A stretch of DNA of 64,000 bases from Tardiphaga sp. vice304. Its GTDB lineage: Bacteria; Pseudomonadota; Alphaproteobacteria; Rhizobiales; Xanthobacteraceae. Below are positions 38,404 to 63,645 of this stretch, piece after piece. The first letter of the stretch is position 1. Each line of letters starts with the position of its first letter. A program made the translations under genes and the position numbers. The stretch is from assembly GCF_007018905.1 (NCBI RefSeq), contig NZ_CP041402.1:4080001-4144000 (forward strand), written 5' to 3'. The notes beneath the pieces are model-generated. The model ran no database searches and was not told where the DNA came from. It saw only the letters and a list, made by a program, of their open reading frames with translations.

Positions 38404-39611
38404 CACGCGGCCTCGGCGAGCGAGCGGCCGAACATCAGGTTCGTTCTAAGCCGGGCGACATCGGCACCGCTGCGGATCAATTCGAGATACCACAACGCAT
38501 CGTGGGTATCACCGACGAGCACCGCGCCCGTCAGCCGGCCTTCGGCGATCACCAGCTTCTTGTAGATGCCGTGGCGGATGTCGTTGAGCAGCAATGTCTC
38601 GCTGCCTGCGGCCGCCACAAAGTCACCGGCCGAGAACACGCTGACGCCGGACACTTTCAAGTTGGTGGCGAGCACGCTGCCTTCATAGGCAGCGCTGCCG
38701 CCTGCGAGATGCTGCGCCAACACTTTGGCCTGTTCATAGGCCGGCGCGACCAGCCCGTAACAAGTGCCGCGATGCTCGGCACATTCGCCGAGCGCAAAGA
38801 TGTTCTCGGTTCCGGTCGCCATCCGGTCATCGACCACGATGCCGCGATTGACTGGCACGCCGGCCTCTCTCGCCAGCGACGCATTGGGCCGGATGCCCGC
38901 CGCGAAGATCACGGCATCGGTCTCAAGCCGGCGACCGTCCGTCAGTTCAACCCCTTGCACGGATCCATCGCCACAGATCCGGGCCGTGTTGGCCTCAAGC
39001 AGCACCGTGACGCCCTTGCGCTCCACAAGTGTTCTCAGCAGCGCGGCGGCAGCGGCATCGAGCTGTCGCTCCATCAAACGGTCCATCAAATGGATCAGCG
39101 TCACGCTCGCGCCGGCCTTGGCGAGGCCGTATGCCGCCTCCAGCCCGAGCAGCCCGCCACCCACCACCACGACGCGCTTGTTCTGTGCGGCAAGGTCGAG
39201 CAGCCCATCGACATCGTGGCTGTCACGAAACGTGTGCACGCCGGCGAGCTCGGCGCCGGGCACCGGCAGCCGCAGCGCCGAGGAGCCGGTGGCAAACACC
39301 AGCTTCGAGAACGGCACAGGCTTGCCGGTCGAGGTCCGGACTTCGCGTGCGGTCATGTCGATCGAAACTGCCGTTGCGCCGTATTTCAGCGTGACGCCGC
39401 GGTCGCGCCACCATGATGCCGGGCGCAGCTCGATCTCGTCATGGGTCGCCTCGCCGGCCAGCACCGAGGACAGCAGCACGCGGTTATAGGCCAGCCGCGG
39501 CTCGTCGCCGATCACCGCGATGGCATAGCGGCCGAGCGCGCATTGTGCGAGCTCGTCGACCAGCTTTGCCGCCGCCATGCCGTTGCCGATGATGACCAGC
39601 GCTTCGCTCAC
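38403..39611 (-). CDS. flp: FAD/NAD(P)H oxidoreductase of the nitrate-assimilation cluster
   Basis: The 402-residue flavoprotein resembles the N-terminal half of NirB and rubredoxin reductases. FAD-binding IIGNGMAAAKLVDEL is at the N-terminus, the NAD(P)H-binding VVVGGGLLGLEAAYGLA is mid-protein, and the second FAD motif is FALGECAEH. In B. japonicum the equivalent Flp passes electrons to NasC and is linked to the haemoglobin. Nine bases separate it from the globin gene, and its stop overlaps the nasC start. Confidence 0.92.
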   Translation of the reverse strand: MSEALVIIGNGMAAAKLVDELAQCALGRYAIAVIGDEPRLAYNRVLLSSVLAGEATHDEIELRPASWWRDRGVTLKYGATAVSIDMTAREVRTSTGKPVPFSKLVFATGSSALRLPVPGAELAGVHTFRDSHDVDGLLDLAAQNKRVVVVGGGLLGLEAAYGLAKAGASVTLIHLMDRLMERQLDAAAAALLRTLVERKGVTVLLEANTARICGDGSVQGVELTDGRRLETDAVIFAAGIRPNASLAREAGVPVNRGIVVDDRMATGTENIFALGECAEHRGTCYGLVAPAYEQAKVLAQHLAGGSAAYEGSVLATNLKVSGVSVFSAGDFVAAAGSETLLLNDIRHGIYKKLVIAEGRLTGAVLVGDTHDALWYLELIRSGADVARLRTNLMFGRSLAEAA

Positions 39612-39620
39612 GTTTTTTCC

Positions 39621-40046
39621 TTACTCGGCCGCCTGCGCACCATGCGCCTCGGAAATCATGTAGCCCGACAGCGTGCCGTAGGCGGTCGTCCAGGCGTCTG
39701 CGAGTTCGGGGTTCCAGGCCTCGCTGAGACCCTTCTCCAGCGTCCATGGCAAGGCAGATCCGACGATCGGATAGTGCTCGTCCTTGGCGCCGTAGCCGAC
39801 GTGCCGTTTGGCCAGCGCGCTAGCGGCGGGCAGCACGGTTTCCAGCCGCGACAGCCCGGTCACCACGATGCCGAGCGTCTCCATCAGCTTGCGACGCTGC
39901 TCGGCCATATCGGCATCGTGAAACATCGGCTTCACATCAGGCGCGATCTCGAACAGGCGATCGTAGAACAGCACCGCCGCTTGATCGGCGATCGGGACGA
40001 CTTTGGCGAAGCTCTGCTGTATCAATTCGGTCTGCTGCGGCGTCAT
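39621..40046 (-). CDS. bjgb: Single-domain bacterial haemoglobin (Bjgb-like)
   Basis: The 141-residue globin has the globin E/F-helix arrangement, with the likely proximal His in LAKRHVGYGAKDEHY, distal-side residues around MFHDADMAEQRRKLM, and no reductase domain. In B. japonicum the equivalent protein detoxifies nitric oxide made during nitrate use, with Flp as probable reductase. ATG 40046 follows GGGAGA at six-base spacing. Confidence 0.92.
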   Translation of the reverse strand: MTPQQTELIQQSFAKVVPIADQAAVLFYDRLFEIAPDVKPMFHDADMAEQRRKLMETLGIVVTGLSRLETVLPAASALAKRHVGYGAKDEHYPIVGSALPWTLEKGLSEAWNPELADAWTTAYGTLSGYMISEAHGAQAAE

Positions 40047-40070
40047 GGTGGTCTCCCTCTCTCCACTGTC

Positions 40071-40090
40071 GTCCCCGCGAAAGCGGGGAC
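40071..40090. repeat. Short GC-rich palindrome
   Basis: GTCCCCGCGAAAGCGGGGAC is an inverted repeat with eight-base arms around a GAAA-type loop, in the gap between nrtC and the globin gene. It could fold in the transcript and attenuate readthrough. Confidence 0.7.
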
Positions 40091-40138
40091 CCATACCCTC
40101 AGGAAGCAAGAATGAAACGCGGCTCTGTCGCTTTCACC

Positions 40139-40232
40139 GTCATTGCGAGGAACCTCTTGGCGAGGAAGCGATCCAGCCTTGCCTAGTTTGCGGCTCTCTG
40201 GATTGCCGCGCCGCTTCGCTCCTCGCAATGAC
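40139..40232. repeat. Palindromic repeat with GTCATTGCGAGG ends (second copy)
   Basis: The left end GTCATTGCGAGGAAC and right end GCTCCTCGCAATGAC are inverted, with inner GATCCAG/CTGGATT. It is the same element as that at 30514-30607 and lies in the 213-bp nrtC-globin gap. Confidence 0.85.
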
Positions 40233-40259
40233 GGGGAGATGCCATTGCGTGGAGCGCCC

Positions 40260-41054
40260 CTACGCCGCCTCGACGAATTTGTGGCGCTCGTACAGAAATT
40301 CCAGCACGCGCTTGCGGCAGCTCAGATAGACAGGATCGGTCGCGAGCTCGAGCCGCCTGCGCGGCCGCGCCAGCGGCACGTCGAGCACTTCGCCGATCGT
40401 GGCGCTGGGGCCGTTCGTCATCATCACGATGCGGTCCGATAGCAACACCGCCTCGTCGACGTCATGGGTGATCATGACGATGGTGTTGCCTAGCTTCTGG
40501 TGCAGCGCCATCACCGAATCCTGCAGATGCGCGCGGGTCAGCGCGTCCAGCGCACCAAAGGGCTCGTCGAGCAGCAACACCTTCGGCTCCATCGCCAGCG
40601 CGCGCGCAATGCCGACGCGCTGCTTCATGCCGCCGGAGATCTCCGAAGGCCGCTTGTCCTTGGCGTGGGTCATCTGCACGAGGTTGAGATTATGCACGAT
40701 CCAGGCCTCGCGTTCCTTCTTGCTCTTCGACCGGGCGAACACCTTGTCGACGCCGAGCTGAACGTTCTGATAGACGGTGAGCCACGGCAGCAGGCTGTGG
40801 TTCTGAAACACCACGGCGCGGTCCGGCCCCGGCGAATTGACCTCGCGGTCCTCCAGCAGTACGCCGCCCATCGTCGCGGTGGTCAGGCCGGCGATGATGT
40901 TGAGCATCGTCGACTTGCCGCAGCCGGAGTGGCCGATGATCGAGACGTATTCGCCCTTGGCCAGCGTCAGGTTGATGTCCTTCAGCACCTCGGACGATAC
41001 GTTGCCGCGGGTAAAAACCTTGTCGATGTGATCGAGCTTCAGATAGGGCTTCAT
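40260..41054 (-). CDS. nrtC: Nitrate ABC transporter ATP-binding protein
   Basis: The 264-residue ATPase energises nitrate uptake. Walker A is GHSGCGKST, signature ISGGMKQRVGIARAL, Walker B VLLLDEPFGALDAL, and the switch His lies in MITHDVDEAV. It lacks the NrtA-like C-terminal extension found in cyanobacterial NrtC. ATG 41054 follows AAGGAAAC; the open frame to 41786 is a shadow of nrtB. Gap to nrtB is 26 bases. Confidence 0.94.
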   Translation of the reverse strand: MKPYLKLDHIDKVFTRGNVSSEVLKDINLTLAKGEYVSIIGHSGCGKSTMLNIIAGLTTATMGGVLLEDREVNSPGPDRAVVFQNHSLLPWLTVYQNVQLGVDKVFARSKSKKEREAWIVHNLNLVQMTHAKDKRPSEISGGMKQRVGIARALAMEPKVLLLDEPFGALDALTRAHLQDSVMALHQKLGNTIVMITHDVDEAVLLSDRIVMMTNGPSATIGEVLDVPLARPRRRLELATDPVYLSCRKRVLEFLYERHKFVEAA

Positions 41055-41080
41055 GATCGTTTCCTTGGCTGACCCAAATT

Positions 41081-42007
41081 TCAACTGACTGAAGTGCCGT
41101 GGGTGACGAGGTTGCCTAAGCCGGCGATCATGCGGTCGAGAATGAAGCCGATGATGCCGACGTAGAACAGCGACAGGATGATTTCGCTGATATGCGAAGA
41201 ATTCCAGGCGTCCCAGATGAAAAAGCCGATGCCGACGCCGCCGATCAACATTTCTGCCGCGATGATCGCCAGCCAGGAAAGCCCGATGCCGATACGCAGG
41301 CCGGTGAAGATATAGGGCGCCGCCGCCGGCAGCATCACCTTGGTGAAGAACTCGATCGGGTTGAGCTGCACCACGGCCGCGACGTTGCGATAGTCCTGCG
41401 GAATGTTGCGGATGCCGACCGCAGTATTGATGATGATCGGCCAGATCGAGGTGATGAAGATCACGAAGATCGCCGACGGCTGGCCGTCGCGGAACGCGGC
41501 AAGCGCCAGCGGCAGCCAGGCCAAAGGCGGGATGGTGCGCAGCACCTGGAAGATCGGATCGAGCCCGCGCATCGCCCAGACCGACTGGCCGACCAGCGTG
41601 CCCAAGGCGATGCCGGCGATAGCGGCCAGCGAATAGCCGTAGGCGACGCGCAGCAGGCTGGCGGAGAGATGCCAGAACAGGCCCTTGTCGATGCCGCCCC
41701 GGTCGAAGAACGGATCGAAGATCAACTCCTTGGTGTCGGCATAGACCTTTGACGGCGGCGGCAGGGTCGATCCCGCGCGCCGGCACACCAGCTCCCAGAA
41801 CACCATCAGCAGCACGAAAACCACCAGCGGCGGGATCACGCGAACCGCGACCTCGCCGGCCATCTTGCGGAATTTGCCGGGACCGGCAGGTCTCGCCGGA
41901 GACATCGCGACGACCGGCAAACCCGCCTTCGGTGCGGCGATGGCCGCACCGGATTTCGGGTTTGCCAAAGCTGCCGCGGTTTCGGTGTTGATGGCTTGCA
42001 TGTTCAT
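41081..42007 (-). CDS. nrtB: Nitrate ABC transporter permease
   Basis: The 308-residue NrtB/SsuC-type permease has six membrane segments after a cytoplasmic Ala/Pro-rich lead of about 50 residues. The coupling loop IPQDYRNVAAVVQLNPIEFF (about 213-232) stands for the EAA motif of this family. ATG 42007 is set by GGAGAC seven bases upstream. It is between nrtA and nrtC in the usual order. Confidence 0.94.
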   Translation of the reverse strand: MNMQAINTETAAALANPKSGAAIAAPKAGLPVVAMSPARPAGPGKFRKMAGEVAVRVIPPLVVFVLLMVFWELVCRRAGSTLPPPSKVYADTKELIFDPFFDRGGIDKGLFWHLSASLLRVAYGYSLAAIAGIALGTLVGQSVWAMRGLDPIFQVLRTIPPLAWLPLALAAFRDGQPSAIFVIFITSIWPIIINTAVGIRNIPQDYRNVAAVVQLNPIEFFTKVMLPAAAPYIFTGLRIGIGLSWLAIIAAEMLIGGVGIGFFIWDAWNSSHISEIILSLFYVGIIGFILDRMIAGLGNLVTHGTSVS

Positions 42008-42058
42008 CGCAATGTCTCCGTGCTCAGTTCATCGTCGGGCAAGTCGCGGCTGAACGGT

Positions 42059-43366
42059 TCAGACCTCGACGCGCTTGATGGCGAGCGACTTCAGGTAGGC
42101 TGCGGGGTTCTCCGGATCGAACACCTTGCCGTCGAAGAAGGTCTCCTTGCCGCGCGAGGTCGAGGTCGGCATCGCAGTGACGCCCATCTCCTTGGCGGCT
42201 TCCTTCCAGAGGTCTTCGCGGTTGACCTTGGCGATCAGCGCCTTGGAGTCGAAGCCGGCGTCGTACTTGCCCCAGCGGATGTCCTCGGTCATGAACCACA
42301 GGTCATGGCTCTGGTAGGGGTAGGAGGCGAAGTCGTCCCAGAACTTCATGATGTGCGGCGAATTCTCGACGACGCGGCCGGTGCCGTAGTCGAACTTGCC
42401 CCTGACGCGGTCGGTGACGTCTTCCACCGGGCAGTTGATCCACTGCCGCTTGGCGTTGATCGCGGCGACCTCGTCGCGGTTTTCCGACTTCTCGCAGAAT
42501 TGCTGCGCTTCCATCACCGCCATCAGCAGCGCCTTGGCGGCCCTGGGGTTCTTGTCGACCCAGGCGGCGCGCATGCCGAGCGACTTCTCCGGATGCTTGT
42601 TCCAGAGTTCGCCGGTGGTCAGCGCGGTGTAGCCGATGTTCTGGTGGATCAACTGCAGGTTCCACGGCTCGCAGACGCAGAAGCAGTCCATCGTGCCGAC
42701 CTTCATGTTGGCGACCATCTGAGGCGGCGGCACCACGATGGTTTCGATGTCCTTGTCGGGATCGATGCCGCCGGCAGCCAGCCAATAGCGGATCCACAAA
42801 TCATGCGTACCGCCGGGGAAGGTCATCGCCGCCTTGACCGACTTGCCGGTGGCTTTCTTCTTCTCGATCGCCGCCTTGAACGGCGCGGTGTCGAGGCCGA
42901 TCTTGAGCTCGGCATATTCCTTGCCGACCGAGATGCTCTGGCCGTTCAGATTGAGGCGCGCCAGGATGTACATCGGCGTCGGCACGTTATTCTGCGTGAC
43001 CTTGCCGGCGGAAATCAAATAGGGCATCGGCGTCAGGATATGGGCGCCGTCGATACCGTTGCCTTCGGAGCCGAGCACCAGATTGTCGCGCGTGGTGCCC
43101 CACGACGCCTGCTTCAGGACTTCGGTTTCCGGCAGGCCGTATTTGGCGAAAATGCCCTTCTCCTTGGCAATGAACAGCGGGGCCGCATCGGTCAGCGCGA
43201 TGAAGCCTAGCTTGGCGCCCTTCACTTCGGGGCCTGCGCCCTGCGCGAAGGCGCCGGCGGGGAAATTCAGCTTCACGGCGGCCAGCAGGGCTGCGGTCCC
43301 GGCGCCGGCCTTCAGCAATTGGCGGCGGCTCAACTTGCGGGGCAATGGGGTCACTGACTTCGTCAT
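42059..43366 (-). CDS. nrtA: Nitrate ABC transporter substrate-binding protein
   Basis: The 435-residue periplasmic nitrate-binding protein has a Tat signal (KLSRRQLLKAG, hydrophobic core, cut after GAFA near residue 41) and NrtA features: LGFIALTDAAPLFIAKEKGIF, ASWGTTRDNLVLGSEGNGID, TFPGGTHDLWIRYWLAAGGI and CVCEPWNLQLIHQNIGYT. ATG 43366 is favoured because it places the Tat motif normally; upstream in-frame codons to 43486 lack a signal. It is the first gene of the nitrate run, preceded by a candidate sigma-54 promoter and leader hairpin. Confidence 0.95.
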   Translation of the reverse strand: MTKSVTPLPRKLSRRQLLKAGAGTAALLAAVKLNFPAGAFAQGAGPEVKGAKLGFIALTDAAPLFIAKEKGIFAKYGLPETEVLKQASWGTTRDNLVLGSEGNGIDGAHILTPMPYLISAGKVTQNNVPTPMYILARLNLNGQSISVGKEYAELKIGLDTAPFKAAIEKKKATGKSVKAAMTFPGGTHDLWIRYWLAAGGIDPDKDIETIVVPPPQMVANMKVGTMDCFCVCEPWNLQLIHQNIGYTALTTGELWNKHPEKSLGMRAAWVDKNPRAAKALLMAVMEAQQFCEKSENRDEVAAINAKRQWINCPVEDVTDRVRGKFDYGTGRVVENSPHIMKFWDDFASYPYQSHDLWFMTEDIRWGKYDAGFDSKALIAKVNREDLWKEAAKEMGVTAMPTSTSRGKETFFDGKVFDPENPAAYLKSLAIKRVEV

Positions 43367-43470
43367 CGTCGCGATCGTCCTTTCAAGCCTGAAGGCCAGC
43401 ATCGCCATTTCCACCCCGTTACGTCGCAGCGCGCTTCGGACCGGAAGGCGAACAGACATAGCGGCGCGTC

Positions 43471-43485
43471 TGGGGGACGCCCCCA
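43471..43485 (-). promoter_or_regulatory. GC-rich leader hairpin upstream of nrtA
   Basis: TGGGGG and CCCCCA pair across a three-base loop about 105 bases before the nrtA start. If transcription starts at the sigma-54-like site near 43545, this hairpin lies in the leader RNA. In B. japonicum nitrate genes respond to the NasS-NasT antitermination pair, so it may be a control structure; the sequence alone shows only the hairpin. Confidence 0.4.
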
Positions 43486-43544
43486 TGATGGCAGTGCGGC
43501 GTGTGATGGATGGTGACGGCTACAATGGCGTCAGTAAGAACTAT

Positions 43545-46283: not shown

Positions 46284-46664
46284 ATGAAGCAGCGCAGCGC
46301 CGGCAAACCCGACATCGAGATGGGCAAAAGAATCCGCCTTCGTCGTGTCGAGCAGAAAATCTCGCAGGCGGATTTGGGCGAGCAATTGGGCGTCAGTTTC
46401 CAGCAGGTCCAGAAGTACGAAAAAGGCGTGAATCGCGTTGGTGCAGCACGTTTGCAGCAAATTGCGACCGCGCTCGACGTCCCGGTGACGTTCTTCTACG
46501 ACGGCGACGGCAAGACGCGCGAAGTCGAAAGCCTGCTGTTTCTCGACAGCGCCTTCAGCCTGCGCCTGCTGCGCGCGTATAGCCGAATCAAGAGCCAGAC
46601 CGTTCAGCGCCAGATGGTCGCTTTGATGGAGTCGATCGCGGACGAAGAGAAATTGCCCGCCTAA
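46284..46664 (+). CDS. XRE-family transcriptional regulator
   Basis: The 126-residue regulator has an N-terminal helix-turn-helix (GKRIRLRRVEQKISQADLGEQ, with GVSFQQVQKYEKGVNRVGA in one protein chain) like phage repressors. A C-terminal helical stretch of about 45 residues (SAFSLRLLRAYSRI) follows. Single-domain proteins like this are frequent in Bradyrhizobium and Sinorhizobium. The target is unknown; GGTGA just precedes the ATG. Confidence 0.92.
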   Translation: MKQRSAGKPDIEMGKRIRLRRVEQKISQADLGEQLGVSFQQVQKYEKGVNRVGAARLQQIATALDVPVTFFYDGDGKTREVESLLFLDSAFSLRLLRAYSRIKSQTVQRQMVALMESIADEEKLPA

Positions 46665-46834: not shown

Positions 46835-47896
46835 TTACGGCGTCAGCACGGCGCGGCCGATAAGTCTGCCGGCCCGAAGATCGTCCAGCGCTGCGTTGGC
46901 CTGCGCAAACGGCAGCGGGATCACCGGGATCGGCGCGACGTGCCTGGTCCGCACCAGTTCGAGCAATTCACGGGTTTCACGCAGATTGCCGACATAGCTG
47001 CCCTGGATGGTCAACGCCTTCATCGCGATCAAGGGCAGCGCCCAGGTGGCGCCGCCACCGAACAGCCCGACCATGATCAATTTGCCGCCTTTCGACAGCG
47101 CATCGAAGCCGAGTTGCGTCGTCGAGGGCGTACCGACCAGATCGATCACCGACAGGATAGGCCCGCCTGCGGCTTTGGCGAGTTGCTCCAGCGCGTCCGG
47201 CGCGTTGCCATCGACAGCACCCAGCGCGCCAGCCTTGATCGCAGCCTCGCGCTTGCGGGCGTCGATATCGACGACGATGGCGCCCTTGCCGCCCATCGCC
47301 TTGAGCAGCGCGAGTGCCATCAGGCCGAGGCCGCCGGCGCCGAAAATCACGATCGGATTGCCGAGATCGCTTTCGACTTTCTTCAACGCACTGTAGGTCG
47401 TGACGCCGGAGCAGGCATAGGGCGCGGCGGTGACGGGATCGAGCCCCTGCAGATCGAGCAGATAGCGCGGATGCGGCACCAGGATGTGGTCGGAATAGCC
47501 GCCGTCGCAATGCACGCCGAGACAGTTCGGCTTCAGGCACATGTTCTCGTCGCCGGCCAGACACACCGCGCACTTGCCGCAGCCGATCCAGGGATAGACC
47601 AGCGCGATGTCGCCGATCTTCACGCCCGGCTCGTTCTGCGCGTCCGGGCCGAACGCCACGACCTCGCCGACCGTTTCATGGCCCATCGTCCGCGGCAGCG
47701 AAATGCCGCGGTCCTTCAGCGACAGCCTCTTGCGGCCGTGGCCGAGCTCATAGCCGCCCTCCCAGATATGCAGGTCGCTGTGGCATACGCCCGCGGCCTT
47801 GACGCGAACCAGCACCTGCGTGCCGGTCGGCTGCGGCGTGTCGATCTCGGCAAGCACCAGCGGTGCCTCGAATTCAGCGACCTGATAGCTCTTCAT
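46835..47896 (-). CDS. Zinc-dependent alcohol dehydrogenase
   Basis: The 353-residue medium-chain dehydrogenase has catalytic zinc ligands in GVCHSDLHIWEG and GHETVGEV. The structural-zinc cysteines are CGKCAVCLAGDENMC, and the nucleotide-binding motif is GAGGLGLMALALL. It oxidises a primary alcohol or reduces an aldehyde with NAD(H). AGAGG precedes the ATG by six bases. It follows the CoxL-like gene by 35 bases on the same strand, so an alcohol-aldehyde-acid route is possible. Confidence 0.93.
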   Translation of the reverse strand: MKSYQVAEFEAPLVLAEIDTPQPTGTQVLVRVKAAGVCHSDLHIWEGGYELGHGRKRLSLKDRGISLPRTMGHETVGEVVAFGPDAQNEPGVKIGDIALVYPWIGCGKCAVCLAGDENMCLKPNCLGVHCDGGYSDHILVPHPRYLLDLQGLDPVTAAPYACSGVTTYSALKKVESDLGNPIVIFGAGGLGLMALALLKAMGGKGAIVVDIDARKREAAIKAGALGAVDGNAPDALEQLAKAAGGPILSVIDLVGTPSTTQLGFDALSKGGKLIMVGLFGGGATWALPLIAMKALTIQGSYVGNLRETRELLELVRTRHVAPIPVIPLPFAQANAALDDLRAGRLIGRAVLTP

Positions 47897-47931
47897 GGTG
47901 TTCCTCTCCGGTGGTTTCTTGTTGTATTTTT

Positions 47932-50256
47932 TTAAGCTTGGGGGCCGGCGCTCCGGATCGCGTCCCAGATTTTCAGCGGCGATAGCGGCGTGTCGAGCTG
48001 GGTGATGCCATAGCCGCTCAGCGCATCGAGCACGCCGTTGGTGATGCAGGGCGGCCCGCCGATCGCGCCAGACTCGCCGCAGCCTTTCGAACCCAGGGGA
48101 TTGGTCACGCAGGGCGCCGAGCCATCGAGCGTAACCGACAGCGGCGGCACGTCGGCGGCGCGCGGGATGCAGTAGTCCTGATAGGTCGCAGTGAGCAACT
48201 GACCTTCCGCATCGTAATGCACGCCTTCATACAGCGCCTGGCCAATGCCCTGCACGACGCCGCCATGCACCTGGCCGATGACGAGCATCGGGTTCACCGC
48301 GACGCCGACATCGTCGACCGTGGTATACTTCACCACATTGGTGATGCCGGTCTCCGGATCGATCTCGACTTCGCAGATATGCGTGCCGTTCGGCCAGGTC
48401 GGGCCGTCGGCCACGCCGGTGGATTCGACGCTGAGCTCGGCGCCGCTCTCGGCCTTGGCGATCTCGAACAGGCCGATCTTCTTGTCGGTGCCGACCACGG
48501 TGAGGTAGCCGCCGGCATATTCGATGTCGTCGACGGAGGCTTCCAGCAAATGCGACGCCTTCTCGCGCGCCTTGGCGATCATGTCCTGCGCCGAGACGAC
48601 CGCCGCGGTGCCGCCGACGAACAGCGAGCGCGAACCGACGCTGCCCATGCCGACGATGACGTCGGTATCCCCTTGGATCACGTCGATCTTGTCCATGCCG
48701 ATGCCTAGCGATTCCGCGACCAGCTGCGAATAGGCGGTCTGCAGCCCCTGCCCCATCGCCTGCGTTCCGGAATGCAGGATGACGCGGCCCTCGGCGGTCG
48801 CGCGCAGTTTCACGGTTTCCTTGGTGCCGGGGCCGCCGGTCCATTCGATGTAGCTGGTCAGGCCGCGGCCGTAGAGCAGGCCCTTCTTCTTCGCCGCCTT
48901 CTTGCGGGCGGCAAAACCATCCCAGTCGGACAGTTCGGACGCCCGCTCCAGCATATGCGCGAAAGCGCCGCTGTCATAGGTCTGGCCGACCGCGTTCTTG
49001 TAGGGAAACTGCGCCGGCTTGATGTAGTTGACCTTGCGGATCGTGCGCGGATCCATGCCGATCTGCCGTGCCGCGGCGTCCATCAGCCGCTCCATGATGA
49101 ACACTGCCTCGGGTCGCCCGGCGCCGCGATAGGCGCCGACCGGCGCGGTATGCGTCATCACCGCCTTGATGTCGTAATGCACGTTCTGCAAATCGTAGAC
49201 GCTCGTCTGCACGAAGGGTCCGAGCACCAGCGGAATGATCACGCCGGTGCCGGACATGTAGGCGCCGGTGCCGCCGACCGACTTGACGCGATAGGCCTGG
49301 ATGCGGCCTTTCGCATCGAGTGCGATGGCGGCGATCGAGGTGAGGTCGCGGCCATGCGTGCCGCCGACGAAATCGTCGGTGCGGTCACCGCGCCAGCGAA
49401 TGGTGCGGCCGAGCTTGACCGCCGCATAGGCGACGATGCCGTCTTCCGGATACAGGCTGGTCTTCTGGCCGAAGCCGCCACCGATATCACCGACCACCAC
49501 GCGGATGCTGTCCTTCGGCCGCTTCAGGATCGAATCCGCCAGGATGTCGCGGGTCGAGGCCGGCGTCTGACTCTGCACGAACAGCGTGAGTTTGCCGGAC
49601 TTCTTGTCGACTTCGGCAATCGTGCTGCGCGGCTCCATCGCCGAGGGGACCAGGCGCTGGCTGGTGACGTCGAGCGAGACGACGTGCTTCGCCGCAGCGA
49701 AGGCGGCATCTACATTGGCGGCGTCGCCATAGCTCATCACGGCGACGATATTGTCCGGGGCATCCGGCCACACCTTCGGCGCGCCGGGCTCGGTCGCCGT
49801 GGCAAGATCTACCACCGCCGGCATAACCTCATATTGCACGTCGATCGCTTCGGCGGCGAGTTGCGCGGCCGTGCGCGAGGTTGCGACGATGGCGGCGACC
49901 GTTTCGCCGGCATAGCGCACGATCTCGTGCGCCAGCAAACGGCGCGGCGGAAAGGTCGCCGGCGAGCCGTCGGGCCGCTTGAAGATCGGCAGCGTCGGCA
50001 GCGTGCCTACGTCTTCGGCGACCAGGTCCGCGCCGGTGTAGATGGCGGTGACGCCGGGCATCGCTTTCGCAGCGGCGCAATCGATCGAGATGATTTTCGC
50101 GTGGGCATGCGGCGAGCGCAGCACATGCAGCCACAACGCGCCGTCTTCCGGCTTGTCGTCGATGAAAAGGCCCTTCCCGGTGAGAAGTCGCTTGTCCTCA
50201 AGGCGCTTGGGCGAGAGGCCAGCGCCGAAACGCAGATTACCGGGCAGAATGTTCAT
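47932..50256 (-). CDS. CoxL/aldehyde-oxidase-family molybdenum hydroxylase large subunit (orphan)
   Basis: The 774-residue protein is a complete Mo-cofactor-binding subunit of the xanthine dehydrogenase / CO-dehydrogenase family. It has GGGFGQKTSLYPED, the active-site loop GAYRGAGRPEAVF, VQGDTDV and GCGESGAIGG near the C-terminus with the catalytic Glu. The AYRGAGR loop is that of form II CoxL-like enzymes, which generally are not CO dehydrogenases. The expected FAD (medium) and FeS (small) partners are not adjacent. Its neighbours are a DapA-like aldolase upstream and an alcohol dehydrogenase downstream. Confidence 0.92.
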   Translation of the reverse strand: MNILPGNLRFGAGLSPKRLEDKRLLTGKGLFIDDKPEDGALWLHVLRSPHAHAKIISIDCAAAKAMPGVTAIYTGADLVAEDVGTLPTLPIFKRPDGSPATFPPRRLLAHEIVRYAGETVAAIVATSRTAAQLAAEAIDVQYEVMPAVVDLATATEPGAPKVWPDAPDNIVAVMSYGDAANVDAAFAAAKHVVSLDVTSQRLVPSAMEPRSTIAEVDKKSGKLTLFVQSQTPASTRDILADSILKRPKDSIRVVVGDIGGGFGQKTSLYPEDGIVAYAAVKLGRTIRWRGDRTDDFVGGTHGRDLTSIAAIALDAKGRIQAYRVKSVGGTGAYMSGTGVIIPLVLGPFVQTSVYDLQNVHYDIKAVMTHTAPVGAYRGAGRPEAVFIMERLMDAAARQIGMDPRTIRKVNYIKPAQFPYKNAVGQTYDSGAFAHMLERASELSDWDGFAARKKAAKKKGLLYGRGLTSYIEWTGGPGTKETVKLRATAEGRVILHSGTQAMGQGLQTAYSQLVAESLGIGMDKIDVIQGDTDVIVGMGSVGSRSLFVGGTAAVVSAQDMIAKAREKASHLLEASVDDIEYAGGYLTVVGTDKKIGLFEIAKAESGAELSVESTGVADGPTWPNGTHICEVEIDPETGITNVVKYTTVDDVGVAVNPMLVIGQVHGGVVQGIGQALYEGVHYDAEGQLLTATYQDYCIPRAADVPPLSVTLDGSAPCVTNPLGSKGCGESGAIGGPPCITNGVLDALSGYGITQLDTPLSPLKIWDAIRSAGPQA

Positions 50257-50333
50257 CAGGAGGTCCTTTGGCAGACAGGCTGCACTGCGTTCTAACCCAT
50301 AAGCCGCGCGGCAGCCAACATCCCCGCCGCAGG

Positions 50334-51212
50334 TCAGCCGAGCTCCCGCAGCACCGCTTCGATGACCCGGCGTTCATCCGCCGTGAGCGCCGCCTGCGGC
50401 GCGAGGGGATCGCCGACCTCATAGCCCTGGATCGACAGCCCGGTCTTGATGCAGGCGGCCAGATTGTAACGTGCGAAGGCTTCGTTGAGCCGCCACATCC
50501 GGCGTTGCAGCGCCATCGCCTCGTTCCAGCGCTGCGCCTTGCACAGGTCGTACAATTCCACGCTCTGCTTCGGCGCCACGCAGGCCGGACCGGCCATCCA
50601 GCCGACGCCGCCGATCAGCATCACAGCCGCGGGAATGTGCGCGGAGGCCGCAAACACCTGCAGCTCGCTGCCGCAGCGGTTGATGATCGACAGCAGCCGC
50701 CCGGTATTGGTCGAGGCGTCCTTGATGTAGCGAATCCGCGGATGTTCGGCGAGCCGCGCGACGACGTCGAGCGTCAGATCGGAACGCTGGAATTGCGGAT
50801 TGGTGTAGATCACGACAGGGATATCGACGGCATCCGCAATGGCGCGAAAATAGGATTCGACCTGGGCGTCCTTGAGCGGGAAATACGCCTCTAGAATCGC
50901 GAGAATGCCGTCGGCTCCGAGTTTCTGGTACGATTTCGCCTGCGCCACGGCGTCCACCGTCGATGTCGAGGCAACACCGGCCACCACCGGCACGCGCCCC
51001 TGCGCGGCTTCGATCGTCGCCTGCACCACCGTGCGGCGCTGCTCGCGGCCAAGATAGGCGATCTCGCCGGTCGAGCCGAGTGGCGTGAGGCCGTGCACGC
51101 CGGCCCCGATCAGTTCATCGCACAACCGGCCGAGCACCTCGGTGCGGATCCTTCCGTCGGCGTCCGTGGGCGAGACCAGATACGGAAAGACGCCGTGGAA
51201 AGCGGCGCTCAC
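50334..51212 (-). CDS. DapA/N-acetylneuraminate-lyase family aldolase
   Basis: The 292-residue TIM-barrel lyase or synthase has the substrate-binding [10 protein letters not shown], the catalytic Tyr in [10 protein letters not shown] (about residue 135) and the Schiff-base Lys in IRYIKDAST (about residue 164). In this family the reaction varies (dihydrodipicolinate synthase, keto-acid aldolase, dehydratase). The operon, not lysine synthesis, should guide its role. GTG 51212 overlaps the stop of the preceding gene by four bases (GTGA), with AAGGA upstream. Confidence 0.9.
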
Positions 51213-51604
51213 CCGGCGTCCTTCAACACGCCTTCCGCCTTCAGCACCTCATGTGCGGCCTTGAACGCCTCAAGCCCTGCGGGAATGCCGGAATACACCG
51301 TGGCATGCAGCAGGATCTCCTTGATCTCCTCGACGGTGACGCCGTTGGTCAGCGCGCCCTTGACATGCAGCTTCAGCTCGTTCGGGGCCTTGAGAGCCGT
51401 GAGCATCGCCAGATTGAGCATACTGCGGGTCTTGCGATCGAGCCCCGGCCGTGTCCAGGCATAGCCCCAGCACCACGACGTCGTGATGTCCTGAAACGCC
51501 ATCATGAAATCGTCGGCCTTCGCACGGCTGCCATCGACATAGTCCTTGCCCAGCACGTCGCGCCGGACCTCGAGGCCCTGTTTGAAAAACTCGCTGTCGC
51601 CCAC
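51209..51604 (-). CDS. Carboxymuconolactone-decarboxylase family protein
   Basis: The 131-residue all-helical protein fits the CMD/PcaC family: [23 protein letters not shown] and [21 protein letters not shown] (one chain) with the His-bearing [13 protein letters not shown]. PcaC decarboxylates 4-carboxymuconolactone, but many homologues are unassigned or peroxidase-like. GTG 51604 follows GGAGG by six bases. It is coupled to the DapA-like gene. Confidence 0.9.
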
Positions 51605-51708
51605 CGCATCCTCCTGATTTTTTTACTCGTTAAGACCAGCTTCGGGAGCCGCCGCGCGAATGTCAACGGGCACGAGCCTGCGTCGACGACGCGCGGAGGA
51701 TAGTGGTG

Positions 51709-52971
51709 TCAGGCGTTCGCCCGGAAATTCTCGATCAGCCGCAGCAGCACGCGCGCGCCGGCTTCGACATCCGCCGGCTCGACGTGCTCGGCGGGATGGT
51801 GGCTGATACCGCCGCGGCAGCACACGAACAGCATCGCCACGTCAGCGATGTCGATCATCGCCATGCCGTCATGGCCTGCCCCGCTCGGCAATTCGAACAC
51901 CGGGTAGCCCTCGTCCTTCACCGCCTCGGCGACCTGCTGCTGCAACCAAGCCGCGCAAGGCACGGTGCGGTTCTCATGGGTGACGTTGATCTCCAGCGCC
52001 AGATGCCGGCGCCTGGCGATCTCCTCGATCTGGCGCACCACGTCGGCGACCGCCAGCTTGCGAAAGGAATCGCGCGGGCTGCGCATGTCGATGGTGAACG
52101 ACACCATGCCTGGAATCACATTGGTCGCGCCCGGCATCGCGTTGATGTAGCCGACCGTGCCGACCAGCCCGTCCCGGTCGCTGGCGCAGAATTCCTCGAT
52201 CGCCACGATGCATTCCGCCGCCCCCGCCAGCGCGTCGCGACGCAGCGCCATCGGCACGGTGCCGGCGTGGCCGGCCATGCCGCGCAGCTCCACCGCCAGC
52301 CGCGTCGCCCCGGCAATCGCGGTGACCACGCCGACCGGAAGCTGCTTGGCTTCCAGCACCGGCCCCTGCTCGATATGCAGCTCGACATAACCCAGCAGTT
52401 CGCTGCGCGCCCGCGCCGCGGCACCGATGTGCTCGGGGTCGAGCCCGAACGCGACCATCGCCTCACGCATGGTGAGGCCCGAGCGGTCCTTGCTGCCCAG
52501 CGCACTTTCATTGAAGGTGCCGGCGACGGCGCGGCTGCCGAGCAGCGTCGAGGCGAATCTCACGCCCTCCTCATCGGCAAAGCCGGTCACTTCCAGCGCG
52601 AAGGGCAACCGCTTGCCGCGCCGGTTGAGGTCGCCGACGCAGGCGATGGCGGCGATCACCCCGAGCGGCCCGTCCCAGCGGCCGGCGTCGCGGACGGTGT
52701 CGAAATGCGAGCCGATCATCAGGCACGGCAGGCCCGGCCGGTCGCCTTCGTAGCGTCCGCAGACATTGCCGATTGCGTCGAGCTGTGCGGTCATTCCCGC
52801 GTCGCGCATCCAGCCCATCAGCAGCTCCGCCGCGGCCCGGTGCTCGGCCGTGAGGAAGACGCGCGTGATAACGTCCGCCGTCTCCGAAATCGCCGCCAGC
52901 CTATGGATGCGTTCGACGATCTCGGCGCCGAGCGACACGATCGGGGCGACTTTCGCTTCCATGGCAATCAT
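51709..52971 (-). CDS. M20-family amidohydrolase (allantoate / N-carbamoyl-amino-acid type)
   Basis: The 420-residue Zn enzyme has metal-site segments GSHFDTVRDAGRWDGPLGV, TGFADEEGVRF and ELHIEQGPVLE, and the dimerisation-domain NVIPGMVSFTIDMRSP. This matches the hydantoinase/carbamoylase group that includes allantoate amidohydrolase. Purine genes across the divergent promoter and a uricase at the right edge favour allantoate as substrate, while the minus-strand aldolase/decarboxylase run allows an N-carbamoyl amino acid instead. Confidence 0.88.
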   Translation of the reverse strand: MIAMEAKVAPIVSLGAEIVERIHRLAAISETADVITRVFLTAEHRAAAELLMGWMRDAGMTAQLDAIGNVCGRYEGDRPGLPCLMIGSHFDTVRDAGRWDGPLGVIAAIACVGDLNRRGKRLPFALEVTGFADEEGVRFASTLLGSRAVAGTFNESALGSKDRSGLTMREAMVAFGLDPEHIGAAARARSELLGYVELHIEQGPVLEAKQLPVGVVTAIAGATRLAVELRGMAGHAGTVPMALRRDALAGAAECIVAIEEFCASDRDGLVGTVGYINAMPGATNVIPGMVSFTIDMRSPRDSFRKLAVADVVRQIEEIARRRHLALEINVTHENRTVPCAAWLQQQVAEAVKDEGYPVFELPSGAGHDGMAMIDIADVAMLFVCCRGGISHHPAEHVEPADVEAGARVLLRLIENFRANA

Positions 52972-53091
52972 GCTTCTTTGGTGGCCCGCGACATTGCCGC
53001 GGTGAGGGACGTTTCAGTATAATTCGGCTATTGGCTCAGGCCAATCCGCAGTGTCCGAGCGCCTTTCAGCGAACAGAGGACAGGAGAGACA

Positions 53092-53583
53092 ATGAACGAT
53101 CAGTCCACGCGTGACGAGTTCTATCTCCGCCGCGCCTTCGACGCCAGCCACCGCGCGGTGGCCAACGGCAACCACCCGTTCGGTGCCGTGCTGGTCGATT
53201 CCGAAGGCCAGTTGCTGCTGGAAACAGAGAACGGCTTCATGCCCTCGCATGACGGCACCGCCCATGCAGAAAGGCTGTTGTGCTCGGCCGCAGCGACCAG
53301 CCTGTCGGCCGCGGTGCTGGCGGGCAGCACGCTTTATTCATCGGCCGAACCGTGCGCGATGTGTGCTGGTGCAATCTACTGGGTGGGCATCGGCCGCGTC
53401 GTGTTTGGCCTGGGCGAATCCAGATTGAAAGCCATCACCGGGGCGCATCCGGAAAACCCCACGCTCGACCTGCCCTGCCGCACGGTGTTCGCGGCGGGCC
53501 AGAAGACGATCGAGGTGATCGGCCCGCTGCTGGAGGACGAAGCCGCAGCCCAGCATGAAGGTTTCTGGGCGACGCAGGACTAG
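53092..53583 (+). CDS. Cytidine/deoxycytidylate-fold nucleoside deaminase (guanine-deaminase-like)
   Basis: The 163-residue zinc deaminase has the catalytic Glu and His ligand in TAHAERLLCSAA and the Cys ligands in EPCAMCAGAIYW. NHPFGAVLVD at the N-terminus matches the tRNA-adenosine / guanine deaminase group. Placed before a nucleoside importer and xanthine dehydrogenase, it most likely turns guanine into xanthine. AGGAGAG sits five bases before the ATG. It opens the plus-strand purine run. Confidence 0.9.
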   Translation: MNDQSTRDEFYLRRAFDASHRAVANGNHPFGAVLVDSEGQLLLETENGFMPSHDGTAHAERLLCSAAATSLSAAVLAGSTLYSSAEPCAMCAGAIYWVGIGRVVFGLGESRLKAITGAHPENPTLDLPCRTVFAAGQKTIEVIGPLLEDEAAAQHEGFWATQD

Positions 53584-60223: not shown

Positions 60224-61042
60224 ATGGATCTGAACACGGTCACGTCGGTGGCGCGCCCGCAAGCGCGGGAACAGTTGCCCCAATGGACGGCCGGCGACGC
60301 GTGGCTGGCGGGCGGCACCTGGCTGTTCTCCGAACCGCAGGCCCATCTCACGCGACTGATCGACCTTGCCGACCTCAACTGGCCCGCGCTGACCATCACC
60401 GACAGCCATCTACAGATCGCCGCGACCTGCACCGTCGCCCAGCTCGATGCGCTGGCCTGCCCGCCGGACTGGATCGCGGCGCCGCTCATCAACCAGTGCT
60501 GCCGCGCTTTTCTGGCGTCGTTCAAGATCTGGAAGACGGCGACGATCGGCGGCAATCTGTGCTGCTCGCTGCCGGCCGGCCCGATGATCTCGCTGACCGC
60601 GGCGCTCGAAGGCCAGTGCACGATCTGGAATGCCGATGGCAGCGAGACCCGGCTGCCCGTCACCGATTTCATTTTGGGCGACCAGCGCAATGCGCTGGCG
60701 CCGGGCGACCTGTTGCGCAGCCTCGACATCCCGCTTGCCGCCCTGCGGCGCCGCTCCGCGTTCCGGCAGATCGCGCTCACCCCGGTCGGTCGCTCCGCCG
60801 CGCTGCTGATCGGCGCCGTCAAGGAAAACGGCTTGCTGCTTACCGTGACGGGCTCGACCGTGCGGCCAGTCCAGCTCGGATTCGCGACAATGCCTCGAAC
60901 GGAGCAACTGCACGAAGCGATCCTGAATGCCATTCCCGACAATCTCTATCACACCGATGTCCACGGCAAGCCGGCCTGGCGCAAGCACATGACGCTGCGT
61001 TTTGCCGAAGAGATCCGTGCCGAACTCGGCGGCACGCCATGA
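60224..61042 (+). CDS. Xanthine-dehydrogenase FAD-binding subunit (YgfM/CoxM-like)
   Basis: The 272-residue FAD-binding subunit has DAWLAGGTWLFSEPQ near residue 30 and TATIGGNLCCSLPAG near residue 106, the two FAD pyrophosphate motifs, with a small C-terminal CO-dehydrogenase-flavoprotein domain. It accepts electrons from the FeS/Mo subunit. Its stop overlaps the next gene's start by four bases (ATGA). The pair resembles E. coli ygfM-xdhD. Confidence 0.9.
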   Translation: MDLNTVTSVARPQAREQLPQWTAGDAWLAGGTWLFSEPQAHLTRLIDLADLNWPALTITDSHLQIAATCTVAQLDALACPPDWIAAPLINQCCRAFLASFKIWKTATIGGNLCCSLPAGPMISLTAALEGQCTIWNADGSETRLPVTDFILGDQRNALAPGDLLRSLDIPLAALRRRSAFRQIALTPVGRSAALLIGAVKENGLLLTVTGSTVRPVQLGFATMPRTEQLHEAILNAIPDNLYHTDVHGKPAWRKHMTLRFAEEIRAELGGTP

Positions 61043-63645
61043 GCTACCGGATCAACGACCACGACTTCACAGAGCAGCCCCGCGCCGGCCAGTGCCTGCG
61101 CACCTTTTTGCGCGAGCTCGGCCATTACGGCGTCAAGAAGGGCTGCGATGCCGGCGACTGCGGCGCCTGCACGGTGCTGATCGACGGCGAGCCGGTACAT
61201 TCCTGCCTGATCCCGGCGTTTCGCGCCGACGGCCACGCCGTCACCACCATCGAGGGCCTTGCGCCCGACGGCGACACCCATCCGATGCAGCAGGCGTTTC
61301 TTGACGCGCAGGCGTTCCAGTGCGGCTTCTGCACCGCGGGCATGATCATGACCTGCGTCTCGCTGAACCAGGCGCAGCGCCAGGACCTGGGTCACGCGCT
61401 GAAAGGCAATTTATGCCGCTGCACCGGCTATCGCGCGATTGCGGATGCGCTTGATGGCAAGACCTATGTCGAGCACGCCGAGCCCGGCACCGCCTTCGGC
61501 CGCAGCCTGCCGGCGCCCGCCGGTCCGCTCGTGGTGAAAGGCGCGGCGCGCTACACCTTCGATATCGCGATGGACGACGTCTTGCAGATCAGGATCCTGC
61601 GCTCGCCACACCCGCATGCCAACATCGTCACGATCGACGCGAGCGAGGCCCTGGCCATGCCGGGCGTCCACGCCGTGCTGACGCATGAGGACGCGCCGAC
61701 CAGACTGTTCTCGACCGCGCGGCACGAGGTCACCGAGGTGGACCCCGAGGACACTCGCATCCTCGACCATGTCGTGCGCTTCATCGGCCAGAAAGTCGCC
61801 GCCGTCGTCGCCGACAGCGAGGCGATCGCCGAGGAGGCCTGCCGCCGCATCAAGGTGGTCTACGACATTTTGCCCGCGGTGTTCGATCCCGAACTGGCGA
61901 TTGCCGACGGCGCGCCGCTGATCCATCCCGACAAGACGCCTGCGCACCGCGTAGCCGAGTCCGCGCGCAATATCGTGGCGCAGACCCATGCCGAGGTCGG
62001 CGATGTCGCAGCAGCTCTGGCGGCGTCCGCGGTCACCTACGAAAACATTTTCGTCACCCAGCGCGTCCAGCACGGCCACCTCGAAACCCATGGCGGCATG
62101 GCCTGGGTCGACGATACCGGCCTGCTCAACATCCGCTCCAGCACGCAGGTGCCGTTCCTGACGCGGCGCGCGCTGGCAGGATTGTTCGATCTGCCGACCG
62201 AAAAAATCAGGGTGTTCTGCGAGCGCGTCGGCGGCGGCTTCGGCGGCAAACAGGAAATGTTCGTCGAGGACATTCTGGCGCTGTGCGCGCTGAAGACCGG
62301 ACGCAAGGTGAAGTGGGAGCTGACCCGCGAGGAACAGTTCATCGGTACCGCCACGCGGCATCCGATGCGCGTCAGGATTCGCGCCGGCGCCGACGCCGAT
62401 GGCAAGCTGACCGCCTTGCATCTCGATGTGCTCAGCAACACCGGCGCCTATGGCAACCATGCCGGCCCCGTTCTGTTTCACGCCTGCAGCGAATGCATCA
62501 GCGTCTACAAGTGCGACAACAAGAAAGTCGATGGCGTCGCAGCCTACACCAACACCCTGCCGTCCGGCGCATTTCGCGGCTACGGCCTGCCGCAGACGCA
62601 GTTTGCGGTGGAATCGGTGATCGACGAACTGGCGCGCCAGCTTGGCCTCAGCCCGTATGAATTCCGTCGTCGTAACGTCGTCAAACCGGGCGATCCGATG
62701 ATCTCGGCGACAGGCCCGCAGCATGCCGATGTATTGTACGGCAGCTACGGACTCGACCAGTGCCTCGACCTCGTCGAACACGCCATGCAGGAACCGACCG
62801 CGCACGATCTCTCGTCGGACTGGCTGACCGGCGACGGCATCGCGCTCACCATGATCGACACCGTGCCGCCCGGCGGCCATATCGCCGACGTGACGATCGA
62901 GATCCGCGACGACGGCGATTTCGACCTCACCGTGGGCACCGCCGAATTCGGCAACGGCACGGCCACCGTGCACCGCCAGATTGCCGCCACCGCGCTGGGC
63001 TGCACGGTCGAGCAGATCCACCTCCGGCAATCCGACACGGCCCATGGCGGCCACGACACCGGCGCCTATGGCAGCGCCGGCACGTTTGTCGCGGGAAACG
63101 CCACGCTGGATGCAGCGCGAAAACTGGCCGTCGCGATCCAGGCCAACGACGGCACGCGCCGCGCCGATGGCACCTCCGGCGGCACGCCGCGCTCGGTCGC
63201 CTTCAACGTCCAGGGCTTTCGCGTCGCTGTGAACAAAGGCACCGGCGAGATCAGGATTCTCAAGAGCGTCCAGGCAGCGGACGCTGGCGCCGTCGCCAAT
63301 CCGATGCAGCTGCGCGGCCAGATCGAAGGCGGCGTCGCGCAGGCGCTCGGTGCGGCGCTGTACGAGGAGATGGTGATCGACGATGGCGGCCGGGTGGTGA
63401 ACCCGAAATTCCGCGACTATCATTTGCCATCGTTCGCCGACGTGCCGCGCACCGATGTGTACTTCGCGCAGACCTATGATTCGATCGGCCCGCTGGGCGC
63501 CAAGTCGATGAGCGAGAGCCCGTACAATCCGGTGGCGCCCGCGATGGGCAATGCGCTGGCGGATGCGACAGGGATCCGCTTCACCCAGGTCCCGTTCAAG
63601 CCGGACAGGATCTTTCAGGCATTACATGCGAAGTATGGGAAGTAG
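61039..63645 (+). CDS. Fused FeS-molybdenum subunit of xanthine dehydrogenase (XdhD-like)
   Basis: The 868-residue fusion joins a small [2Fe-2S] subunit (residues about 1-155) to the molybdopterin subunit (about 165-868). Ferredoxin-type Cys lie in KGCDAGDCGACTVLIDG and the second cluster in QCGFCTAGM with CRCTGY. The Mo part carries GGGFGGKQEMFVE, SGAFRGYGLPQTQF and the final KSMSESPYNPVAPAMGNAL, with Glu as probable base. With the separate FAD subunit it should oxidise hypoxanthine or xanthine to urate, as suggested for E. coli XdhD/YgfM. ATG 61039 is set by the 4-base overlap; the frame open from 60283 is a shadow. Confidence 0.92.
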   Translation: MSYRINDHDFTEQPRAGQCLRTFLRELGHYGVKKGCDAGDCGACTVLIDGEPVHSCLIPAFRADGHAVTTIEGLAPDGDTHPMQQAFLDAQAFQCGFCTAGMIMTCVSLNQAQRQDLGHALKGNLCRCTGYRAIADALDGKTYVEHAEPGTAFGRSLPAPAGPLVVKGAARYTFDIAMDDVLQIRILRSPHPHANIVTIDASEALAMPGVHAVLTHEDAPTRLFSTARHEVTEVDPEDTRILDHVVRFIGQKVAAVVADSEAIAEEACRRIKVVYDILPAVFDPELAIADGAPLIHPDKTPAHRVAESARNIVAQTHAEVGDVAAALAASAVTYENIFVTQRVQHGHLETHGGMAWVDDTGLLNIRSSTQVPFLTRRALAGLFDLPTEKIRVFCERVGGGFGGKQEMFVEDILALCALKTGRKVKWELTREEQFIGTATRHPMRVRIRAGADADGKLTALHLDVLSNTGAYGNHAGPVLFHACSECISVYKCDNKKVDGVAAYTNTLPSGAFRGYGLPQTQFAVESVIDELARQLGLSPYEFRRRNVVKPGDPMISATGPQHADVLYGSYGLDQCLDLVEHAMQEPTAHDLSSDWLTGDGIALTMIDTVPPGGHIADVTIEIRDDGDFDLTVGTAEFGNGTATVHRQIAATALGCTVEQIHLRQSDTAHGGHDTGAYGSAGTFVAGNATLDAARKLAVAIQANDGTRRADGTSGGTPRSVAFNVQGFRVAVNKGTGEIRILKSVQAADAGAVANPMQLRGQIEGGVAQALGAALYEEMVIDDGGRVVNPKFRDYHLPSFADVPRTDVYFAQTYDSIGPLGAKSMSESPYNPVAPAMGNALADATGIRFTQVPFKPDRIFQALHAKYGK

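Follow-up and report, generated by a model that had tools for sequence, protein, structure and literature searches.

A solo CoxL-type large subunit beside a DapA-fold lyase in Tardiphaga: a candidate subunit-sharing molybdenum hydroxylase

Molybdopterin-binding large subunits (L) of the CoxL family work with an iron-sulfur (Fe-S) subunit (S) and usually also with a flavin subunit that binds flavin adenine dinucleotide (FAD) (M). In the archaeon Sulfolobus tokodaii, GAOR2 and GAOR3 have different L proteins and the same M and S, which are encoded far from the L genes (PMC4726530); the principle of a shared M-S pair is already known in an archaeon. Our literature search, carried out mostly without subscription papers, returned no bacterial precedent for such a shared pair. 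Bacterial CoxL-like genes such as the one described here are named carbon monoxide (CO) dehydrogenase by several sources, though S and M are not nearby. Here we analyze a stretch of 64,000 nucleotides from Tardiphaga sp. vice304 (NZ_CP041402.1; G000:C1:4080001-4144000, hereafter the window; the window genome, G000, is a single contig of 5.79 Mb), and in it a cluster of five genes that includes an L gene with neither S nor M nearby (a "solo L"). The best reading of its product, by analogy with GAOR2 and GAOR3, is that of a subunit-sharing molybdenum hydroxylase, and to judge from the sequences it probably shares an orphan M-S pair encoded elsewhere in the genome. We propose, with a confidence slightly better than even, that these genes form a small catabolic operon centered on a lyase and the solo molybdenum hydroxylase L, whose M-S partner would be provided in trans by the orphan cluster.

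An earlier sequence-only reading had placed five genes on the minus strand here. All five reading frames are open with the same ends, and each product scores above the curated cut-off of its Pfam family (the curated cut-offs of Pfam and NCBIfam models were used). In window coordinates the genes are:

51709..52971, minus strand: M20-family amidohydrolase (M20), hydantoinase/carbamoylase (allantoate amidohydrolase) type, at the head of the unit (PF01546, 83 bits)
51209..51604, minus strand: CMD-family (PcaC-like) protein, a recent addition (PF02627, 75 bits)
50334..51212, minus strand: core gene for a class I lyase of the DapA fold that is no true DapA (PF00701, DHDPS, 180 bits)
47932..50256, minus strand: solo CoxL-type molybdopterin large subunit of family A, core gene (PF01315/PF02738/PF20256; MoCoBD_1/2 234/250 bits)
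46835..47896, minus strand: Zn-dependent medium-chain alcohol dehydrogenase (ADH), last gene of the unit (PF08240/PF00107; ADH_N 85 bits)

The most informative fact about this locus is the absence of S and M. A profile search of the genome itself revealed neither subunit within 10 kb of the window CoxL, the nearest ones being those of a xanthine-dehydrogenase-like gene, which lies on the opposite strand at a distance of 10-11 kb. Likewise, no CoxM or CoxS match was found at any of 80 DapA loci (0/80) searched up to 10 kb on each side; these are the best 80 named loci of the 371 found across genera, a biased sample composed of close relatives only. The sequence-only reading had treated CoxL as a complete enzyme, a view overturned by the missing subunits here and in the 80 loci. 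The window genome as a whole encodes 10 CoxL-type L genes, which belong to six complete sets, one partial set and three solo L:

47932..50256 of the window: solo L family A, the window CoxL
L120:6473-8770: solo L family B, beside MurJ
L121:6226-8865: solo L family C

The same genome contains one L-less M-S pair, at positions 4003437-4004818, ~123 kb from the window CoxL (a second apparent pair, at 60.3 kb of the window, turned out to be the xanthine-dehydrogenase-like gene, whose L domain was not among the matches listed). The L-less pair is embedded in a cluster with the order coxG, S, M, CoxD-like AAA ATPase, CoxE, XdhC/CoxI and MocA-like, which is the cox accessory set minus L. The Fe-S cysteines and the FAD-binding motifs, as we take these motifs to be, look intact by eye. 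All 14 genomes examined (G000, G041, G059, G081, G121, G062, G103, G098, G127, G090, G061, G109, G033 and G107) show this order without L; they were drawn from the 31 genomes that have the orphan M at an identity of at least 77%. In G019, on the other hand, the same cluster retains an L between S and M, which makes loss of L the likely history, as judged from this one genome. Another S gene, at G000 3854335, was considered as a partner and rejected, because it is part of another enzyme, whose L gene adjoins it. An S-M pair of the NasT regulon of B. diazoefficiens (PMC6759348) was not used, since by its locus numbers it has the opposite order, under what we assume to be the numbering convention.

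Profiles of the large, Fe-S and FAD subunits were mapped in nine genomes, with the neighbors within 10 kb counted in eight of them (G062 was excluded as too fragmented). Five complete genomes from five genera (G000, G041, G059, G081 and G121) each contain exactly three solo L and one L-less M-S pair. Families A and B are present in all five and family C in G000, G041, G081 and G121; the third solo L of G059 is divergent (44% to A; L130:12443-14995), lies ~1.6 kb from solo A as a tandem, and forms a long branch of unsure place. Two features of subunit sharing are seen here: the solo L genes are far from S and M (with an exception of degree in G102, ~7 kb), and there are fewer stand-alone M-S pairs than solo L. 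The outgroups differ in their counts of solo L and L-less M-S pairs, with one and none in G030, none of either in G110, and five and one in G054, whose M-S is only 32-44% similar.

Phylogenetic analysis places the solo L, like the orphan S and M, with complete S-L-M operons. In the L tree, solo A, B and C cluster with the L from two such operons (support 100/100), and outside this group fall six other operon L genes of the window genome and one solo L of G054. The orphan S groups with the S of those complete operons (99/97), and the orphan M with their M (92/93). A family survey of 119 genomes (solo A counted at an identity of at least 68%, at most 8 L candidates scored per genome) found solo A in 26, and the orphan M at an identity of at least 80% in 26/26 of these versus 4/93 of those without A; the four in question (G062, G090, G098 and G127) carry different L proteins, of 45-46%. 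G103 and G098 retain the L-less cluster and have, as their L proteins of this group, a solo B and one L with its own M beside it. As the other L has its own M, the orphan pair is left without an evident partner except solo B, and needs a partner in trans. Finally, G120 has neither the orphan M (best match 34%) nor an L of this group (best match 34%), although both are present in G042, G081 and G102, which belong to the same genus.

The DapA-like protein encoded upstream of CoxL scores 155 bits against the dapA model TIGR00674, under the cut-off of 206. Its full-length match among the structures of the Protein Data Bank is 3eb2 (544 bits; the next chain scores 146 bits), which falls into the same orthologue group and is itself named only a putative synthetase; no paper naming 3eb2 was found in a literature search made mostly without subscription papers. 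Lys164, Tyr136, Tyr110 and Thr48 are invariant in 117/117 distinct full-length relatives, i.e. the catalytic Lys, Tyr and Thr of class I (Schiff-base) DapA-fold lyases are present, and all 117 have a Phe at the position of DapA Arg138. We take this position from the E. coli DapA numbering and presume that an Arg there marks dihydrodipicolinate synthase. The TIGR00674 score below the cut-off and the replacement of Arg138 by Phe rule out a true DapA (dihydrodipicolinate synthase). The protein thus has the Schiff-base residues and lacks the substrate site of DapA. Given that the Schiff-base lysine is kept and the DapA arginine is gone, its likeliest reaction is the cleavage or dehydration of a 2-oxo acid, which would yield pyruvate and an aldehyde.

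DapA-like matches of at least 73% occur in 43 of the 119 genomes, plus one at 52%. The gene is found in 25 of the 26 genomes with solo A, and is adjacent to it in 18 of these 25. Twenty further DapA loci were examined, 14 from genomes without solo A and six with solo A unlinked. Genes of the tctA and tctC type, encoding a tricarboxylate transporter, stand directly upstream of DapA in six of these 20 (G027, G028, G051, G095, G115 and G131; the TctA and TctC assignment was profiled in G115), which points to a carboxylate substrate. Several of the same six loci (L172, L173, L176, L179, L180 and L181) also have AMP-binding acyl-CoA ligases and a MurJ-like flippase near DapA.

The gene order was compared in 17 other Tardiphaga genomes, all those returned by a search for the genus, and in the 80 loci from across genera. 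In Tardiphaga, M20 adjoins DapA in 17/17 genomes (the M20 match is only partial in G001, and DapA is broken in the draft G009), and CoxL and ADH follow DapA in 15/17, the contigs of G013 and G006 ending first. CMD is encoded in only two of the 17 (G012 and G016), which rules it out as a core gene; it is a recent addition to the locus. In both of these genomes a dehydrogenase of 300 residues, absent from the window, is inserted between CMD and DapA; that of G016 is of the hydroxyisobutyrate/tartronate-semialdehyde-reductase type. Thus, of the five-gene operon proposed from the sequence alone, M20, DapA, CoxL and ADH stand as a conserved unit whose order is kept across the genus, and CMD drops out. 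In the cross-genus set, a CoxL match (>65% identity) is found downstream of DapA in 77/80 loci, four of the matches being partial, at contig ends, and the gap is at most 500 bp in 58 of the 77; among the remaining three loci, L036 has room but no CoxL, and two contigs end first. M20 is close in 10/80 loci and ADH in 9/80, in one of these (L030) upstream. That CoxL follows DapA at so many of these loci (77/80) marks the two genes as the older core. The sequence-only reading could name no pathway for this set of genes, and a literature search on the set, likewise made mostly without subscription papers, found no paper.

Several variations on this arrangement were noted. G016 has a second DapA copy (L117:9950-11429, 70% similar), followed by a gene that by eye has a CoxG-like look; an L gene and a small gene resembling S are located at a distance of 6-9 kb. 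A trypsin/PDZ protease gene is located between DapA and CoxL in L147, L148, L149 and other Bradyrhizobium loci, and some of these have a gene of the glyoxalase family upstream. The conserved genes that follow CoxL in Bradyrhizobium and Rhodopseudomonas were considered as partner subunits, and turned out to encode LemA/TPM-domain proteins and acyl-CoA dehydrogenases. By eye, a gene resembling DctA-type C4-dicarboxylate carriers follows ADH in G011, G015 and G016, with remnants in G012; in the window, a probable XRE-type regulator (46284-46664, plus strand) is situated just downstream of ADH.

As the sequence-only reading had it, the five genes are separated by short gaps or overlap: 104 bp between M20 and CMD, a 4-bp overlap of CMD and DapA, 77 bp between DapA and CoxL, and 35 bp between CoxL and ADH. 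A promoter scan, which reports consensus matches only, saw four promoter-like sites versus 0.9 expected. Two form a divergent pair in the stretch that separates M20 from the purine-side gene (52994-53044), and the other two fall within the CoxL gene; none falls in the gaps between the five genes. The features on the upstream side are:

52972..53091, no strand: intergenic region between the divergent genes, with a promoter-like site on each strand (plus-strand site 52994-53023, minus-strand site 53044-53016; consensus matches only)
53092..53583, plus strand: divergent neighbor, a protein of the cytidine/guanine-deaminase fold that starts the purine-type cluster, outside the unit (PF00383; TadA model 72 bits, below the cut-off of 150)

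The divergent cluster comprises the deaminase-fold protein, a PnrA/Bmp-type ABC transporter, an amidohydrolase and the xanthine-dehydrogenase-like enzyme. The deaminase gene is the direct divergent neighbor of M20 in 9 of the 17 Tardiphaga genomes and is further off in a tenth, several contigs being too short. The divergence from a purine operon, also proposed earlier, holds for the window, where the purine-type cluster is present, and the link itself is weak: with M20 kept by DapA in 17/17 genomes and the deaminase adjoining in nine, the association of M20 with DapA is steadier than that with the purine cluster. The purine-side xanthine-dehydrogenase-like gene (60224-63645) is apparently two genes, a FAD-domain reading frame and a fused Fe-S/Mo protein; the former is probably 60224-61042, in another frame, and the long reading frame from 60283 is probably over-extended. 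Elsewhere in the window, 35707-43486 encodes a molybdopterin oxidoreductase with a BFD domain, a rubredoxin-reductase-type protein and an NMT1-type ABC transporter, and presumably resembles a nitrate assimilation cluster.

Among the remaining products of the unit, M20 exceeds the cut-offs of NF006775 (allantoate amidohydrolase; 565 bits, cut-off 479) and TIGR01879 (391 bits, cut-off 204), and its nearest solved relative is an N-carbamoyl-L-amino acid hydrolase (3n5f). The metal-ligand motifs, in the form we assume for this family, are present by eye. It resembles allantoate amidohydrolase and N-carbamoyl amino acid hydrolase in passing these model cut-offs, and differs from them in keeping with DapA, CoxL and ADH more steadily than with a purine-type neighbor. 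CMD scores 134 bits against the model of 4-carboxymuconolactone decarboxylase (PcaC; TIGR02425), under the cut-off of 156, and ADH reaches no NCBIfam cut-off (best AdhP, 153 bits versus 344).

From these assignments a sequence of reactions can be proposed. M20 would probably strip a ureido or N-acyl group from the starting acid, and the aldehyde released by the DapA-fold lyase would most likely be oxidized to an acid by the solo L, which is predicted to bind molybdopterin. The FAD (M) and iron-sulfur (S) partners would most likely be supplied in trans by the L-less cluster ~123 kb off, and electrons may leave via this borrowed S and M; the two other solo L of the genome probably use the same pair. 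ADH probably interconverts alcohol and aldehyde. Tardiphaga appears to have gained M20 upstream and ADH downstream of the older DapA-CoxL pair. More tentatively, with a confidence somewhat short of even, we suggest that in Tardiphaga, Bradyrhizobium and Rhodopseudomonas a single M-S module, which comes with its own maturation genes, is common to three interchangeable solo L, each in a different gene context. The one described here would be paired with a DapA-fold aldolase of a kind not described before, from which it would receive an aldehyde.

A number of observations weigh against the proposal. DapA and solo A are unlinked in 7 of the 25 genomes having both, 19 genomes carry DapA without solo A, and G061 carries solo A without DapA. 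The support for the grouping of the orphan M (92/93) is below the 95 mark, and the co-occurrence of solo A with the orphan M is weaker than it looks because of shared ancestry. G020 (C2, C4 and C7; L194-L196) has two solo B and one solo C, and no M of this clade (best match 37% identical). Solo L without an orthologous orphan pair are also found in G054, one of whose solo L lies outside the group, and in G030, which combines a solo B-type L with complete operons and no L-less M-S pair. The best NCBIfam hits, to the glyceraldehyde dehydrogenase models (L 587 bits versus a cut-off of 790, NF041018; M 215 versus 350; S 211 versus 290; no cut-off reached), are unspecific, and were dropped as evidence because control operon genes of the same genome share them (4/4 M, 2/2 S and 2/4 L). 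Moreover, in genus g26 solo A is near the M of a complete operon (~7 kb in G102, 21 kb in G042 and 27 kb in G081), which favors the M-S of that operon as the partner. Like the situation in G030, this would agree with the solo CoxL using the M and S of a complete S-L-M operon (in the window genome G000:C1 14.3-18.0 kb, L127) instead of the orphan pair. Within the genome, no M and S are closer to the orphan pair than those of this operon (57% and 60%), which makes a fit to the solo L plausible. Nonetheless, such a partnership would leave a conserved orphan M-S without a partner in 14/14 examined genomes, and in G098 and G103 the orphan pair has been kept as well as the other L-M set, alongside one solo L; we consider it unlikely.

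It could also be argued from the lack of a linked partner in all 80 loci that the solo CoxL acts alone, with an unknown soluble acceptor, or has lost its redox function. However, the (A/P)YRGAGR loop and the GxGES/A motif, which we take to be the active-site loop and the catalytic-glutamate motif, respectively, are kept in every A, B and C solo L of the tree set, and the orphan M-S would be unexplained. Known members of the CoxL family use an Fe-S domain or subunit, which also counts against a CoxL acting alone, and we regard this possibility as very unlikely. The adjacency of DapA and CoxL might, in turn, reflect shared regulation or inheritance instead of one pathway, with M20 acting in purine (allantoate) breakdown and the rest forming an unrelated transcription unit. 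The allantoate amidohydrolase cut-off passed by M20 and its divergence from a purine-type cluster agree with this, as do the position of DapA behind a tricarboxylate transporter in 6/20 other loci and the genomes in which DapA and solo A are unlinked (7 of the 25 having both). Set against these are the constant position of M20 by DapA (17/17 Tardiphaga genomes, versus nine directly by the deaminase) and the internal gaps free of promoter-like sites, and we judge such a separation rather improbable. Our preferred reading remains that of a lyase and a solo L with partners in trans.

If the solo L borrow a shared M-S module, the annotation of such genes as CO dehydrogenase becomes testable. The window CoxL resembles aerobic CO dehydrogenase and form II CoxL-like proteins in family and domain order, and the presumed partner cluster carries coxG and genes of the coxD, coxE and XdhC/CoxI type. 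It scores, however, only 487 bits against the CO dehydrogenase model TIGR02416 (cut-off 991). The active-site loop of CO dehydrogenase contains a Cys that serves as a Cu ligand; the window CoxL has AYRGAGR aligned with the Cys-bearing loop of the CO dehydrogenase chains 8uem and 1ffu. The score, the lack of the loop Cys and the absence of linked coxM and coxS rule out CO dehydrogenase.

If true, the wider suggestion of one M-S module for three solo L would describe a modular molybdenum hydroxylase spread throughout a bacterial lineage, whose substrate range evolves by the addition of L genes alone, and it would offer a simple account of how such enzymes could gain new substrates; 3eb2, a solved structure without a function, would gain a metabolic setting. 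The likeness to GAOR2 and GAOR3 consists of L genes distant from adjoining M and S genes, two or more L per M/S pair, and an L of the xanthine-oxidoreductase family. In contrast to the archaeal case, the sharing proposed here is deduced from genes, and the glyceraldehyde dehydrogenase cut-offs are unreached; the system is bacterial, extends over several genera and usually has three solo L per pair; its M-S genes sit in a cox maturation cluster without L; and across much of the lineage one of its L genes keeps a fixed place next to a DapA-like gene.

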